This document shows positions 9,348 through 42,230 of a DNA stretch of 64,000 nt, in pieces. Below the pieces are notes generated by a model. That model ran no database searches. It was not told where the DNA came from and saw only the letters and a list, made by a program, of their open reading frames with translations. The position numbers and the translations under genes were made by a program. Every line of letters starts with the position of its first letter. Positions within the stretch are counted from its first letter, which is position 1. Source of the DNA: an uncultured Pelagibacteraceae bacterium (GTDB taxonomy: Bacteria > Pseudomonadota > Alphaproteobacteria > Pelagibacterales > Pelagibacteraceae); NCBI GenBank assembly GCA_902598655.1, contig CACKCQ010000007.1:1-64000 (forward strand), written 5' to 3'.

Positions 9348-10727
9348 TTAAGATGCCGCTTTTATTGCAGATTTAGAATACAAACTATTCTTTTTTATCT
9401 CATCTGAAATTAAAAATGCTAATTCTATAGCTTGATCAGAGTTCAATCTTGGATCACAATGTGTATGATATCTACTTGATAAATCTGCATCAGATATTTT
9501 TTTTGCTCCACCTGTACACTCTGTCACATCTTGCCCTGTCATTTCAACATGAAGACCTCCTGCATAAGAACCTTCTGCTTGATGAACTGCAAATACATTT
9601 TTAACTTCACTTACAACATCATTAAAAGGTCTTGTTTTAAAACCAGTAGTTGATTTAATTGTATTGCCATGCATAGGATCACACGACCATACAACATTTA
9701 ATCCTTCTTTTTTTATTCCTCTGATTAATTTTGGTAAGAATTTTTCAACGTTTTGATGGCCAAATCTTGAGATTAAAGTTATTTTTCCTTTTTCATTTTT
9801 AGGATTTATAACCTCACATATTTTTGCAATCTCATCTGGTTTTGATGTTGGACCACACTTGATTCCAATTGGATTTTCTATTCCTTTACAAAACTCAACA
9901 TGTCCTCCATCTAATTGTCTTGTTCTATCTCCTATCCATACAAAGTGTGCTGAGGTATCATGATATTCACCCGTGGTTGAGTCTACTCTTGTCATGCTTT
10001 CTTCAAAAGGTAAGTGTAAAGCTTCATGTGAAGTCCAAAAATTTACAGTATATAATCTATTATTAAAATCAGATGTAATTCCACAAGCATCCATAAAAGC
10101 TAATGCATCTGCTATTTTATCTTCTAACTCTTTAAATTTTTTAGCTTGTGGACTTTTCTTAATATAATCTAAATTCCATAAATGAACCTTATTTAAGTCA
10201 GCAAAACCACCTTTTGAAAAAGCTCTTAACAAATTTAAAGTTGAAGCAGACTGAGAATAAGCCTTGAACATTCTTTTCGGATCAGGTCTTCTAGCTTTTT
10301 CATTAAAATCTATTGCATTTATATTATCTCCCAAATAACTTGGAAGCTCTTTATCACCTTGTTTTTCAGTTGATGCACTTCTTGGTTTTGAAAATTGTCC
10401 AGCAATTCTTCCAAGTTTTACAATTGGTAAAGATGCTGAGTAAGTCATCACTAATGCCATTTGAAGAATAACCTTAAAAGTATCTCTTATATTGTCAGGA
10501 TGAAATTCCGCAAAACTCTCTGCACAGTCACCACCTTGCAATAGAAACGCTTTTCCATCATTTACCATTGCTAACTGATCTTTTAAATGTCTTGTTTCAC
10601 CCGCAAAAACTAGTGGAGGAAAGGTTTTCAATTTACTTAAAACCATTTCCAATTCCTTTTCATCATCATATTGAGGAATATGTTTTACGGGATATTTTCT
10701 CCAGCTATTTATTTTCCAATTTTTCAT
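9348..10727 (-). CDS. aroG: 3-deoxy-7-phosphoheptulonate synthase, class II
   Basis: LLQGGDCAESF, GRIAGQFSKPRS, DPMHGNT, RYHTHCDPRLN motifs. Confidence 0.93.
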   Translation of the reverse strand: MKNWKINSWRKYPVKHIPQYDDEKELEMVLSKLKTFPPLVFAGETRHLKDQLAMVNDGKAFLLQGGDCAESFAEFHPDNIRDTFKVILQMALVMTYSASLPIVKLGRIAGQFSKPRSASTEKQGDKELPSYLGDNINAIDFNEKARRPDPKRMFKAYSQSASTLNLLRAFSKGGFADLNKVHLWNLDYIKKSPQAKKFKELEDKIADALAFMDACGITSDFNNRLYTVNFWTSHEALHLPFEESMTRVDSTTGEYHDTSAHFVWIGDRTRQLDGGHVEFCKGIENPIGIKCGPTSKPDEIAKICEVINPKNEKGKITLISRFGHQNVEKFLPKLIRGIKKEGLNVVWSCDPMHGNTIKSTTGFKTRPFNDVVSEVKNVFAVHQAEGSYAGGLHVEMTGQDVTECTGGAKKISDADLSSRYHTHCDPRLNSDQAIELAFLISDEIKKNSLYSKSAIKAAS

Positions 10728-36829: not shown

Positions 36830-37435
36830 GTGTCTACCACTGTTCCCTACTACGAGGATTTTTCCGAAATAAAAAAGAAAATTTGGTTAATGTTAACTGA
36901 TGCAGTTACTAATAGATCTTCTCCTTTTAGAATACCTGTTTTTTCATGCGGTAGTGAGAGCAATATCGAAAGTAGAATTGTTGTTCTTAGAAAATCAGAT
37001 GAGCAAAATAATTTAGTTCAATTTCACAGTGACATTAGATCTGATAAAATTAAAATATTAAAAAAAAACCCAAATTCATCGATGTTATTTTATGATAAAG
37101 ATGAAAAAATACAGGTTAGATTAAAAGTTGAAGCAATTATCAATCACAATAATGATATAACAAAACAATCTTGGGAGAAAACTCAACATATCAGTCGAAA
37201 ATGTTACTTAGTAGATAATGGACCAGGTACAGAGTCTGATATTCCAACATCTGGTTTAAAACCTGAATTAGATAATTTTGATTACACAAAAGAACAAAGC
37301 GAAGTAGGATATAAAAACTTCACTGTTATTCAGTGTAAAATTAAATCTATGGAATGGTTATATTTAGCTGCAAAAGGTCATCGAAGAGCTAGATTTGACA
37401 TTAATAATAATAAAGATACTTGGTTGATACCATAA
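36830..37435 (+). CDS. Pyridoxamine 5'-phosphate oxidase-related flavin-binding protein
   Basis: Split-barrel FMN-binding type sequence (ESRIVVLRKSDEQNNLVQFHSDIRSDK, C-terminal GHRRARFD); GTG start. Confidence 0.7.
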   Translation: MSTTVPYYEDFSEIKKKIWLMLTDAVTNRSSPFRIPVFSCGSESNIESRIVVLRKSDEQNNLVQFHSDIRSDKIKILKKNPNSSMLFYDKDEKIQVRLKVEAIINHNNDITKQSWEKTQHISRKCYLVDNGPGTESDIPTSGLKPELDNFDYTKEQSEVGYKNFTVIQCKIKSMEWLYLAAKGHRRARFDINNNKDTWLIP

Positions 37436-37833
37436 TGAAAAAATATGAAGCTATGGTTTTGTCATGTATTGATCCAAGGTTTCAGACAAAAGTTTTTAAT
37501 TATTTAAAAAAAAAGAAATTAACTGGAAAGTATAGCTCATTTACTATTGCTGGATCAGCAATTGGTGTAACTTCTAAAAAATTTAAAAAATGGCAATCAA
37601 CCTTTTTGGATAATTTATCAACTTCAATAAAGTTACATAATATAAGTAAATTAATAGTAATTAATCACGAAGATTGCGGTGCAGCTAAAATAGTAAATGG
37701 AAAAAAAGAATTTAGTTCGCTTGTAGAAAATAAAATTCATAAAGACTCATTTGAAAAAATTGAAGCAATTTTAAACAAAAGATTTCCTAAATTAAAACTA
37801 TCTTTTAAAATATTAAAACTAAGTGATAAATAA
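37420..37833 (+). CDS. Small carbonic-anhydrase-like protein
   Basis: Beta-CA-like zinc motifs CIDPR and HEDCGA in a 137-aa protein. Confidence 0.6.
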   Translation: MVDTIMKKYEAMVLSCIDPRFQTKVFNYLKKKKLTGKYSSFTIAGSAIGVTSKKFKKWQSTFLDNLSTSIKLHNISKLIVINHEDCGAAKIVNGKKEFSSLVENKIHKDSFEKIEAILNKRFPKLKLSFKILKLSDK

Positions 37834-37848
37834 TAAATTTTAACAAGA

Positions 37849-38715
37849 TTATTCTTTCCATTTTTTAAACCAATCTTCTTTGGCATACTCAGTTAACTTA
37901 TAAGTACACCATTCATTTTTTCGTCCTTTAAGTAATTTTTTATGAGTATATCTTGCTGGAATTTGATAATTTCCAGGAGGATTACCTCTTTTCTTTTGAC
38001 CTAAAGCGCAAGCAATTTGAAGTGGATCAAATGGATTATCTGAGGTTGGAGTTAAATAAACTGAGTCTTTTAAGTCTGGACAAGTTGGATCATTGTGATC
38101 GTAAACTCCTTTTCCAAATTTTTTTGAAAGATTTTGACTAAGAATACCAGAACTTAAATGTGATCCATTTTTAACTCCTTTAGTACAAGGCATAGCAAAA
38201 CCATTGCCATGAAGTAATTCATGAATTGAAATTTTTGTAATTTGACCTGATGCTCTTTTTATAAACAAGTATCCATGATGAGGTCCCATTTGACCTCCGT
38301 CTCCGCTTGCCGCATCTGTGAATGAGAAATATAATTTTTTTGGATTATTAAATCCTTGTTTTTGTAAGTAATAATCTGGATAATTAACATTCCATCCACC
38401 TTTTTTAGCTTTACGATCCATTCTTACAAATGAGATATCTAGTTTGCCATCTTGTCTATAATCAAATTTTAATCTTTGCTTATTGCCAGTCATTTTAAAA
38501 AATAAATCATCTATTTTTTTGACTTCTTTTTTTATCCAGCCATTAATATCTCTTTCATTATCTTTTGTTTTTTTTGCAAGAAAATAAATAAAATGAATTT
38601 GATAATCATCAGTAACATCTGGCTGGTCTTCAAAATATCTACCTGGTTTTTCATCAGATGCAAATAAAGACGAACTAAATAATGTGATTATTAGAATTAA
38701 GAATATTTTTTTCAT
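37849..38715 (-). CDS. Secreted protein with HExxH-type motif, paralogue of 40717..41712
   Basis: Signal peptide, KPGRYFEDQPDVTDDYQIHFIYFLAKK, SIHELLHGNGF. Confidence 0.6.
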   Translation of the reverse strand: MKKIFLILIITLFSSSLFASDEKPGRYFEDQPDVTDDYQIHFIYFLAKKTKDNERDINGWIKKEVKKIDDLFFKMTGNKQRLKFDYRQDGKLDISFVRMDRKAKKGGWNVNYPDYYLQKQGFNNPKKLYFSFTDAASGDGGQMGPHHGYLFIKRASGQITKISIHELLHGNGFAMPCTKGVKNGSHLSSGILSQNLSKKFGKGVYDHNDPTCPDLKDSVYLTPTSDNPFDPLQIACALGQKKRGNPPGNYQIPARYTHKKLLKGRKNEWCTYKLTEYAKEDWFKKWKE

Positions 38716-39002
38716 AAGCCTCTTATTATTATATTGGTCCCTTCAGAATTATCGAGTCTAATCTGTTTGATAGGCTTATATTCCTCTGAATTATACCATT
38801 CCAAAGCCCTTTGATAACTTGGAAATTTTAAAATGATTATTCTTGGAAAATTTGTCTCGCCATCAAATATTTGAAACTCACCTGCTCTTACCAAAAATTC
38901 TCCACCAAATTTTTTTACAATTGGATTAACTTTTTCAACGTACTCTTTATAATTCTCAGGATTGGTTATTTTTAATTGAGCAATCACATAACCTGAGGGC
39001 AT
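38712..39002 (-). CDS. DUF1330 family protein
   Basis: GYVIAQLKITNPENYKEYVEKVNPIVKKFGGEFLVRAG, FPSYQRALEWYNSEEYKPI. Confidence 0.9.
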   Translation of the reverse strand: MPSGYVIAQLKITNPENYKEYVEKVNPIVKKFGGEFLVRAGEFQIFDGETNFPRIIILKFPSYQRALEWYNSEEYKPIKQIRLDNSEGTNIIIRGL

Positions 39003-39021
39003 TTATTCTCCTTTAATCTTT

Positions 39022-40716
39022 CTAATTAATACAGTTAGATGGATATGTTTCATAATTTTGATCATCTAAGTATTTGAAACGATTAGTTAAAAATTTATTA
39101 ATTTTTTCATTATATTTTTTGGAAATTCTATCTACTTTACACCTTGATGCATACCACCATAATACAGTTTCAGCTAAGTCTTCATTTCCTGGTAATTCCC
39201 AAGCATATTCTGAAATATAATGCTTATCAGTACTAACAGCATTTAACCATTTTTTCTCGTTAACAGATCCGCCCCACCACCAATCGAGTGAAGCGTGAGT
39301 TAATTCATGAAACATTAACTCCTCAGCATATTTTTTATTTTCATTTGTAAGATAATCTGTGTGAATTACTATAGTACCTTTTCCTCCTGCCCAGCCTGCT
39401 TTGCCTTTATGTATAGTTATTTCTTTAACATTTTTTTTTAAAAATTTTGGCATTTGCCCGTATATTTTTGCCCATTTAATTGCTTGTTTTTTTGCCTTTT
39501 TATCAGTTTTAAATTCATCATTAACATTTATTAATATATCCTTACTATTCTCAAAAGTTGCGTTAAAGACAAAAACTGTAAAACTACTTTTACCCCAACC
39601 ATCTTTTGTGTATTTGTTTGATAAGGTTCTCACATCGTAACCCATTACTTTTTTTTTCTCTACAAATGATAAATTTATAAAATTACTTGGGTCTTTTTTA
39701 TTTATTATGTCTCCATCTTTCCACTCACTACCACCTTTAAAAATAAAATTTTTGCTTATACTTATAGTTTTTACAGCTTTATCTAACTCCCATATTGCAA
39801 CTTGTTTTACACCATCGTTCCAAAGCATTGATCCTTCACCATGTCTATTATTATTTTTCCATTCACCGGTATAAACACCTCCGCCACTACTATAAAAATA
39901 TTTACCTTGTCCAGTTCTTTGGCCATTTACCCAATCACCTTCATATCTATCTCCATTTGGCCAAGTACCAATTCCAAAACCATGCATATTTTGCATTTTC
40001 CATTCACCGACATATTTAAAACCTTTTTCCCAAACACCTGTCCCCTTTCCATTATCACAATTGCCTTGAACACAACCTATTGCCTTTCCACTCGAGTCTG
40101 TCTCAATTAAATTTCCATTTTTCCACTCTCCGGATTGTGCTGTGCCGTTTGCGTAGATAAAGGTTCCTTGCCCATCAGCTTCTCCATTTTTTCTTCCGCC
40201 GATGTATTTATCCCCATTTGCCCAAGTAACTGTTCCTTGCCCATTTTGTATACCAAACTCCCAATCACCAATATATTTTGTTCCATTAACCCATTTAAAA
40301 GTACCTAGACCATGGGGTTTTTGATTTTTCCAATCTCCATTATATTTATCTCCATTGGACCATATAAAAGTTCCTTTTCCATTAACGCAATTACCTTTTA
40401 TGCAGCCAGTCTTTAGCGCTGTTTTATTTTCTAAAAATTTTTTTTTGCCAATTGCAAAGAGTTTACACTCACCATTTATTCCTTTTTCTTTTCTGTGTTT
40501 TTCACAATCATTAAATCCATCTTGCTTTTCTGTTCCGCGTCCGTACTCACATTTTCCATCATTCCCGACTACAACAAAAAGATGGTCATCAGAACCTTGA
40601 TTTAAAAGGTCGGCATAAACTTCATCAACTATCCAATCACATATTTGTTGATTTTCTGCTTTAGATGTTTCGCACCATATGAAAGTAAAAAATATAGTTG
40701 CTAATATTTTTTTCAC
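39022..40716 (-). CDS. Secreted MORN-repeat protein with C-terminal HExxH (HELTH) domain
   Basis: Signal peptide, at least seven MORN-type repeats (e.g. GKGTFIWSNGDKYNGDWKNQKPHG), then EELMFHELTHASLDWW. Confidence 0.75.
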   Translation of the reverse strand: MKKILATIFFTFIWCETSKAENQQICDWIVDEVYADLLNQGSDDHLFVVVGNDGKCEYGRGTEKQDGFNDCEKHRKEKGINGECKLFAIGKKKFLENKTALKTGCIKGNCVNGKGTFIWSNGDKYNGDWKNQKPHGLGTFKWVNGTKYIGDWEFGIQNGQGTVTWANGDKYIGGRKNGEADGQGTFIYANGTAQSGEWKNGNLIETDSSGKAIGCVQGNCDNGKGTGVWEKGFKYVGEWKMQNMHGFGIGTWPNGDRYEGDWVNGQRTGQGKYFYSSGGGVYTGEWKNNNRHGEGSMLWNDGVKQVAIWELDKAVKTISISKNFIFKGGSEWKDGDIINKKDPSNFINLSFVEKKKVMGYDVRTLSNKYTKDGWGKSSFTVFVFNATFENSKDILINVNDEFKTDKKAKKQAIKWAKIYGQMPKFLKKNVKEITIHKGKAGWAGGKGTIVIHTDYLTNENKKYAEELMFHELTHASLDWWWGGSVNEKKWLNAVSTDKHYISEYAWELPGNEDLAETVLWWYASRCKVDRISKKYNEKINKFLTNRFKYLDDQNYETYPSNCIN

Positions 40717-41712
40717 TTAATTCCTTTGAAATATACCAAATTCTTCTTCCCATGGAGCTGCTACGTCGTCTCGTGCATAAAAACAATCTCCACCTTCACC
40801 TTTATCTTTATCATAAATATTTTCATAATTATGTTTTGTAAATTTCCATTTTTCCTTTGGTATACAAGTAACTTCAAAAGGATCAAAAGGTGTATCTGAT
40901 GTAGGTGTAAAATAAACACTGTCCTGCATGTTTGGACAAGTTTTATTATTATGACCCCAATAATCATCATTCTTTGGGTCTAAAGTATGATTTGTTCCAT
41001 CACCCGATCTACTCATCATGTCTTTTGTTTTTTTAGTATTGTGTCCTTCGATAAAATTTGGTGAACATTTATAAATTCCACCCATGGCATGTAAAATCTC
41101 GTGTAAAATAAAATATCCAACCTCTTTATTATTAAGTGGGTATTTTTTTTGATGTTTAGAAAATACACTAAAAATTGGAAATCCAACAGAAAATGGCCAA
41201 TCTTTATGAGTAAAATCTCCAAAGTTAAAATATATTTTCTTAGGGTTGTTCATTCCATTATTAATAATGGATCTTCCAAATACACCTCCACAACTACCCC
41301 ATTTAGACTTTTTCATGTCTTTTTTGGTTCTGTTTATTCTAAGAAACGTAATATCTAACTTTCCGTCTTTACGTCTATCCCACTTTAATTTCTGACCTTC
41401 TCCATTATTAAAATTTGATTTCTTGTTTGCTTTAGCAGTTGTTTTTAAAATCCATTTATTGGCGGTTTCAACCCATTTTTCCAATTCTCCATTTATATCT
41501 CCCTCTTTATCTTTTGAGTCTTTTAATAGAGTATAAACAATGTGAACTTGGAAATCATCGTTAACATCAGGCTGATCCTCAAAATATCTTCCTGGTTTTT
41601 TGTCACTATCTAAAATAACTAGTGTTGTATCGCTATCATAACATTTGTCAGCATAAACATTTGAAATTAAGTTAAGTAAAAAAATGATTGATAATAAAAT
41701 TGTTTTTTTCAT
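40717..41712 (-). CDS. Secreted protein with HExxH-type motif, paralogue of 37849..38715
   Basis: Signal peptide, KKPGRYFEDQPDVNDDFQVHIVYTLLKD, DGKLDITFLRINR, FILHEILHAMGG. Confidence 0.6.
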   Translation of the reverse strand: MKKTILLSIIFLLNLISNVYADKCYDSDTTLVILDSDKKPGRYFEDQPDVNDDFQVHIVYTLLKDSKDKEGDINGELEKWVETANKWILKTTAKANKKSNFNNGEGQKLKWDRRKDGKLDITFLRINRTKKDMKKSKWGSCGGVFGRSIINNGMNNPKKIYFNFGDFTHKDWPFSVGFPIFSVFSKHQKKYPLNNKEVGYFILHEILHAMGGIYKCSPNFIEGHNTKKTKDMMSRSGDGTNHTLDPKNDDYWGHNNKTCPNMQDSVYFTPTSDTPFDPFEVTCIPKEKWKFTKHNYENIYDKDKGEGGDCFYARDDVAAPWEEEFGIFQRN

Positions 41713-41717
41713 AAAAT

Positions 41718-42230
41718 TTAAAATACTGATTTAGAATACCTTTTCCAGTTATCTTGGTAATGTTTTGCATTTTCGGTTATTTGCCTGATTTCTTCCTCTG
41801 TAAGTTTTCTAATCACTCTTCCAGGTGATCCCACAACTAATGAATTGTCCGGGATTTCTTTATTTTCAGTGATTAATGCTTTAGCACCAATGATGCAATT
41901 TTTACCTATTTTTGCATTATTTAAAATTACAGCTCCAATCCCTATTAAACTATTATCTCCAATCGTACATCCATGGAGCATAACGATATGACCAATGGTT
42001 ACATCTTTACCTATTTTTAATGGGCAGCCTGGGTCTGTATGTAGAACGCTCCCATCTTGAACATTTGAACCTTCTCCGACGTGAATGTTTTCATTGTCCC
42101 CTCTAATTACAGCATTAAACCAAACACTAGAGTTTTTTTCTAATGTAACATCTCCTATAATAGTTGCATTTGGTGCTACCCAATTTTCGCCAGAGTTTTT
42201 TGGTTTTTTATCTTTTAAATCGTAAAACAT
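41718..42230 (-). CDS. Gamma-carbonic anhydrase-like hexapeptide protein
   Basis: Left-handed beta-helix repeats, NSSVWFNAVIRGDNENIHVGEGSNVQDGSVLHTDPG, IGHIVMLHGCTIGDN. Confidence 0.9.
   Translation of the reverse strand: MFYDLKDKKPKNSGENWVAPNATIIGDVTLEKNSSVWFNAVIRGDNENIHVGEGSNVQDGSVLHTDPGCPLKIGKDVTIGHIVMLHGCTIGDNSLIGIGAVILNNAKIGKNCIIGAKALITENKEIPDNSLVVGSPGRVIRKLTEEEIRQITENAKHYQDNWKRYSKSVF

Follow-up and report, generated by a model that had tools for sequence, protein, structure and literature searches.

A putative family of metzincin-like exported proteins encoded in a variable genomic island of a Pelagibacteraceae bacterium

Introduction

Few cells in the ocean are as numerous as SAR11 bacteria, which are generally portrayed as consumers of small dissolved molecules. 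Do some of them also encode exported peptidases, and what would such enzymes do? The question is raised by a stretch of 64,000 nucleotides from an uncultured Pelagibacteraceae bacterium (the window, that is, the whole DNA analysed here), in which an initial annotation made from sequence had noted a cluster of secreted proteins with HExxH motifs. Here, we refer to the two proteins noted as paralogues as A and B, and to the one encoded between them as M. The titles and abstracts that we searched on SAR11 metalloproteases, the periplasm and hypervariable regions do not describe the A/B family.

Results

All the noted open reading frames, including the embedded DUF1330 gene, are present on the minus strand (Table 1). 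Two features had escaped the initial annotation, namely seven MORN repeats in M and a tight operon that extends to the upstream hexapeptide gene and lies inside a variable island. The gene order is hexapeptide, B, M, DUF1330, A, with intergenic gaps of 5, 0 and 19 bases followed by a 4-base overlap (ATGA) between the DUF1330 stop and the A start; M begins with GTG immediately behind the B stop. This compact arrangement makes it likely that the five genes are transcribed as one operon. Near-identical genes occur in the same order in other Pelagibacteraceae single-cell genomes. No signal peptide is apparent in the sequence of the DUF1330 protein. The island is bordered by a beta-type carbonic-anhydrase-like gene on one side, which is found in some strains only, and by a gamma-carbonic-anhydrase-like hexapeptide gene on the other.

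Table 1. Features of the locus, with positions in the window
Feature	Position	Strand	Basis
Pyridoxamine-phosphate-oxidase-like gene; conserved flank, opposite side	36830..37435	+	PF12766
Pro_CA_2 (putative carbonic anhydrase) gene, opposite island side	37420..37833	+	PF20393, E 3.4e-12
Protein A, 288 aa; putative exported metzincin-like paralogue	37849..38715	-	ORF, paralogy to B, homologue motif
DUF1330 protein, 96 aa	38712..39002	-	PF07045, E 1.8e-30
Protein M, 564 aa	39022..40716	-	MORN PF02493, E 5.8e-29; conserved HExxH and EDxAE
Protein B, 331 aa; putative exported metzincin-like protein	40717..41712	-	Paralogy, conserved columns, AlphaFold model, PDB neighbours
Hexapeptide-repeat, gamma-carbonic-anhydrase-like protein; probable operon gene 1 and conserved island flank	41718..42230	-	PF00132

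Proteins A and B, each with a signal-peptide-like N-terminus and a single HExxH, align across most of their length (35% identity, E 1e-47), which bears out their paralogy. The sequence blocks reported as common to both were recovered: KPGRYFEDQPDV, DGKLDI.F.R, YF.F(T/G)D, HE(L/I)LH and DSVY(L/F)TPTSD(N/T)PFDP. The statement that they belong to no recognised family also held, as searches of Pfam, NCBIfam and PHROGs returned nothing beyond chance, PDB sequences gave no match and no named Pfam or NCBIfam peptidase family scored above its curated cut-off. The best peptidase-family match, to astacin, was found in a distant homologue and reached 17.8 bits against a cut-off of 22.5. In an independent profile search, archaemetzincin was the sole type of match, at a non-significant E of 1.1, and a PDB profile search with the first alignment yielded only chance matches to an adhesin.

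The conservation of the putative active site was assessed in 97 distinct homologues. HExxHxxG-x4-C is intact in 95 of them, with the Cys invariably 12 residues from the first His; of the remaining pair, one is encoded at the edge of a contig and the other has a broken reading frame. HExxH, on whose conservation among orthologues the initial annotation had made its zincin reading depend, is therefore kept in every complete homologue. When A, B and M were shuffled, just 0.7-1.0% of the resulting copies contained the motif, and this rarity, together with conservation in relatives, argues against a chance motif. Among the 58 ORFs of at least 150 aa in the window, HExxH is confined to A, B, M and one other (9351-10727, minus strand, HEALH).

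Classical metzincins carry HEXXHXXGXXH, in which the third zinc ligand lies ten residues after the first His (PMC3890501). In the A/B family, no His or Asp ligand follows at that distance; HExxHxxG continues instead to the conserved Cys, and the next His is found at an offset of 20-21 in 75 of the 95 intact homologues and of 16, 22, 23 or 31 in the remaining 20. The corresponding residues of B are H204, E205, H208, C216, H224, D231-M232-M233, H254 and C259. H254, though almost invariant, is absent from some members, which makes H224 the better of the two candidates, and this later His, found in the search for a downstream ligand that had been proposed, is likely the third zinc ligand. Several further Asp, Arg and Cys positions are invariant in the family.

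A Met-turn-like motif, D[ILVM][ML], follows in 51 of the 95 proteins (B-type) and is missing in 44 (A-type), including A itself, which presents HELLH, the Cys and then a His. This loss could mean that catalysis is absent from the A-type and that these proteins bind peptides or regulate B. We consider this doubtful, because all 44 retain HExxH, the Cys and the following His, and the Met-turn is also missing in some zincins (PMC3890501). Moreover, median dN/dS is 0.06 for A and 0.14 for B, indicative of purifying selection that is strong in A.

The predicted structure of B further supports a zincin-like fold, the other point on which the earlier reading had been made to hinge. The AlphaFold model, built with 30 sequences (pLDDT 74, pTM 0.79), presents strands and helices in zincin order, the last element being the HExxH helix. 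H204-H208 map to the model helix 195-212, and helix and family-wide conservation agree with assignment to the zincins (clan MA). Model confidence is low around the third-ligand/Met-turn segment, falling below pLDDT 50 at residues 227-237. The best PDB neighbours retrieved with Foldseek are nearly all metzincins, namely Amuc_1438, OgpA, ADAM17, fragilysin and ADAMTS. With a best E of 5e-3, all values above 0.001, TM of ~0.3 and a best probability of 0.98, these matches support the fold class but not closeness to any single family. Predicted viral structures gave weak matches, insect-virus matrix metalloproteinases among them. The weak astacin and archaemetzincin sequence matches lean in the same direction. 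On the basis of conserved residues and the model, we infer with a probability of roughly 0.7 that A and B act as exported peptidases that depend on zinc and belong to a metzincin-like family undescribed in the searched libraries.

The middle protein does carry the reported HELTH, but appears to be a zincin of another kind. M combines a signal-like N-terminus, a Cys-containing domain (~20-100), the seven MORN stretches (98.6 bits against a cut-off of 22.5) and a C-terminal domain (~315-564) with HELTH and EDLAET. Both HExxH and the downstream ED[LFV]AE, a pattern seen in Glu-zincins, are kept without exception by five relatives of this C-terminal domain, for which no significant family or PDB match was obtained; folded alone from a single sequence, it reached a pLDDT of 37. 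The searches run revealed no relationship between M and A/B. The motif pattern suggests that M, with its MORN repeats, stands apart as an exported protein of Glu-zincin-like type. The zincin reading of the initial annotation can be refined accordingly, A and B being metzincin-like and M probably of this other type.

Once the matches confined to the signal peptide or N-terminus (the majority) were left out of a search with the A3 profile, convincing M-type copies remained in few genomes of the family (G928, G918, G897, G905 and G884). G918 and G897 have the full form of 563-564 aa at the corresponding locus, and confinement of M to one strain was accordingly rejected. A Cys-containing N-terminal domain precedes some A/B-family paralogues and one M-type protein (L076, E 3e-13), and the N-terminus of M itself ties to it weakly, via L078 (E 1.3e-4), which suggests that accessory parts may be common to two zincin types that are not related. 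In another genome (G055, L074:4274-9688), M-type zincins adjoin an exported EExxH protein without a Pfam family and two polysaccharide-lyase-like proteins, of which the one tested matches PF14099 (E 1.2e-25).

The A/B/M locus is a flexible island between conserved flanks. The outer flanks persist across relatives; 59 of 61 genomes have the hexapeptide gene. Its immediate neighbour in L109 and L117 is the pyridoxamine-phosphate-oxidase-like gene, which leaves the island empty. Elsewhere it holds, depending on the strain, either unrelated genes or A/B-family genes, the latter alone or accompanied by further exported proteins, which include a HEYFH protein, alpha/beta hydrolases, a FIPLELFTGG protein or a PrsW protease. 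The proposal of an exported zincin module is therefore upheld as to zincins, by fold and motif, but not as to a fixed module, the genes being variable cargo. The HEYFH protein (L035:9151-10098, L047:5300-6169) is a third exported type in which HEYFH is followed by WL(V/T)EGGA, a pattern that resembles other Glu-zincins; its sole Pfam match, to the villin headpiece at its end, is weak. The conserved FIPLELFTGG protein, of ~190-206 aa and without a Pfam family, recurs in the island (L038:8956-9531, L039:5467-6084).

Such variation among close strains, along with an N-terminal accessory domain seemingly common to unrelated zincin types, would also be expected of polymorphic exported effectors directed at competing strains or phages rather than of nutrient enzymes. 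However, no immunity gene pattern, toxin-delivery domain or phage link was seen and the orthologues are under purifying selection, which renders an effector island highly improbable. A viral origin of the A/B family was likewise rejected, no relative having been found in IMG/VR contigs or phage records. Plasmid searches with two homologues as queries returned no relative, and short motif queries gave chance-level matches only, which speak neither for nor against a suspected link to similar actinobacterial sequences.

B homologues were found in 43 of the 101 genomes searched, spread over two families of the order. An alignment-profile search of a 289-genome sample of the class added a single genome with a member, and that of a 399-genome sample of the phylum returned none besides the window's own genome. 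The single genome from the class sample pointed to a second alphaproteobacterial order, with genomes of 1.1-1.6 Mb, in which members occur in 13 of 60 genomes, and the position of two of these proteins within the SAR11 A-type group of the tree suggests transfer of A-type genes between the two orders. A B-type gene also lies on a SUP05-labelled single-cell contig (L055:6995-7978), the sole match in 83 genomes of that family, with a GC content of 0.29 against 0.35 for the locus and neighbours that, read by eye, are ordinary gammaproteobacterial genes (aconitase-like, purB-like, bS16-like). The gene appears to have moved laterally between classes of marine bacteria, a chimeric single-cell assembly being a possible alternative. 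In one strain, a B-type gene split over two reading frames (L005:1492-2486; the same genes at L057:6959-7953) adjoins an intact A-type gene and reflects either gene decay or faulty assembly.

The cellular location was approached through the secretion machinery. GspC, a component of type II secretion, was not found in 21 genomes, among them the incomplete genome of the window, which does encode a secretin that may serve type IV pili. This outcome suggests that A, B and M are probably periplasmic. Together with the signal peptides, a periplasmic stay would also suit active metzincin-fold proteases acting on the cell's own envelope, in maturation, surface shedding or quality control, and not on nutrients. 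Presence in just 43 of 101 genomes and the occasionally empty island fit a housekeeping role poorly, and exported hydrolases and esterase-like proteins are encoded nearby; we thus regard an own-envelope role as decidedly unlikely.

Discussion

The likeliest function of A and B, as judged from sequence and model, would be to hydrolyse, by zinc chemistry, protein substrates that are exported or extracellular. In the mechanism that we propose, the N-terminal subdomain of either protein would end in the active-site helix, zinc would be held by both His residues of HExxH and by the later His (H224 in B), and the HExxH Glu would serve as general base. An insert bearing the invariant Cys would displace the later His, and a Met-turn-like motif would come next in B-type proteins and have been lost in A-type ones. 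The MORN repeats of M may bind a surface or lipid. The operon sits in an island whose exported-hydrolase cargo switches between strains, and its likeliest role would be to cleave proteins or glycoproteins for uptake, either within the periplasm or on the surface of the cell. This weak guess at the substrate is prompted by the glycopeptidase structural neighbours and by the hydrolases of the same island.

A broader proposition is that A and B found a new metzincin-like family, in which a Cys-anchored insert shifts the third zinc ligand by about ten residues, and that the operon is a swappable exo-hydrolase island endowing some SAR11 strains with polymer degradation, which would be unexpected in a streamlined cell. 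We advance it tentatively, at slightly less than even odds. If the strain-variable exported peptidase family is real, some SAR11 lineages would degrade proteins or glycoproteins themselves, and A/B would serve to probe how much alteration the zinc site of metzincins tolerates.

Among known systems, A and B share with the metzincins (astacins, adamalysins such as ADAM17, fragilysin and archaemetzincin) the order of elements, HExxHxxG, a later His and, in B-type proteins, a Met-turn-like motif. They differ in the candidate third ligand, which is shifted by about ten residues with the invariant Cys in between, in the missing Met-turn of the A-type, and in the lack of a significant sequence match. 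M, for its part, resembles 4l7a, an uncharacterised Bacteroides-type protein in which HExxH precedes SEDIAE in the register of EDLAET; however, the match is not significant (E 0.09), and the MORN repeats and N-terminal domain are extra in M. The best structural neighbours of B are the Akkermansia metzincin O-glycopeptidases Amuc_1438 and OgpA (PDB 8df2 and 6z2d; E 5e-3 and 7e-3), exported enzymes with HExxH, a third His and a Met-turn (PMC7518263, PMC9513282). Identity to B is 10-15% at a TM of ~0.3, and the third His of OgpA, H215, stands ten residues past H205 (PMC7518263), whereas the offset is 20 in B. Their mucin specificity finds no support in B, yet Amuc_1438, motif aside, likewise falls outside any defined family.
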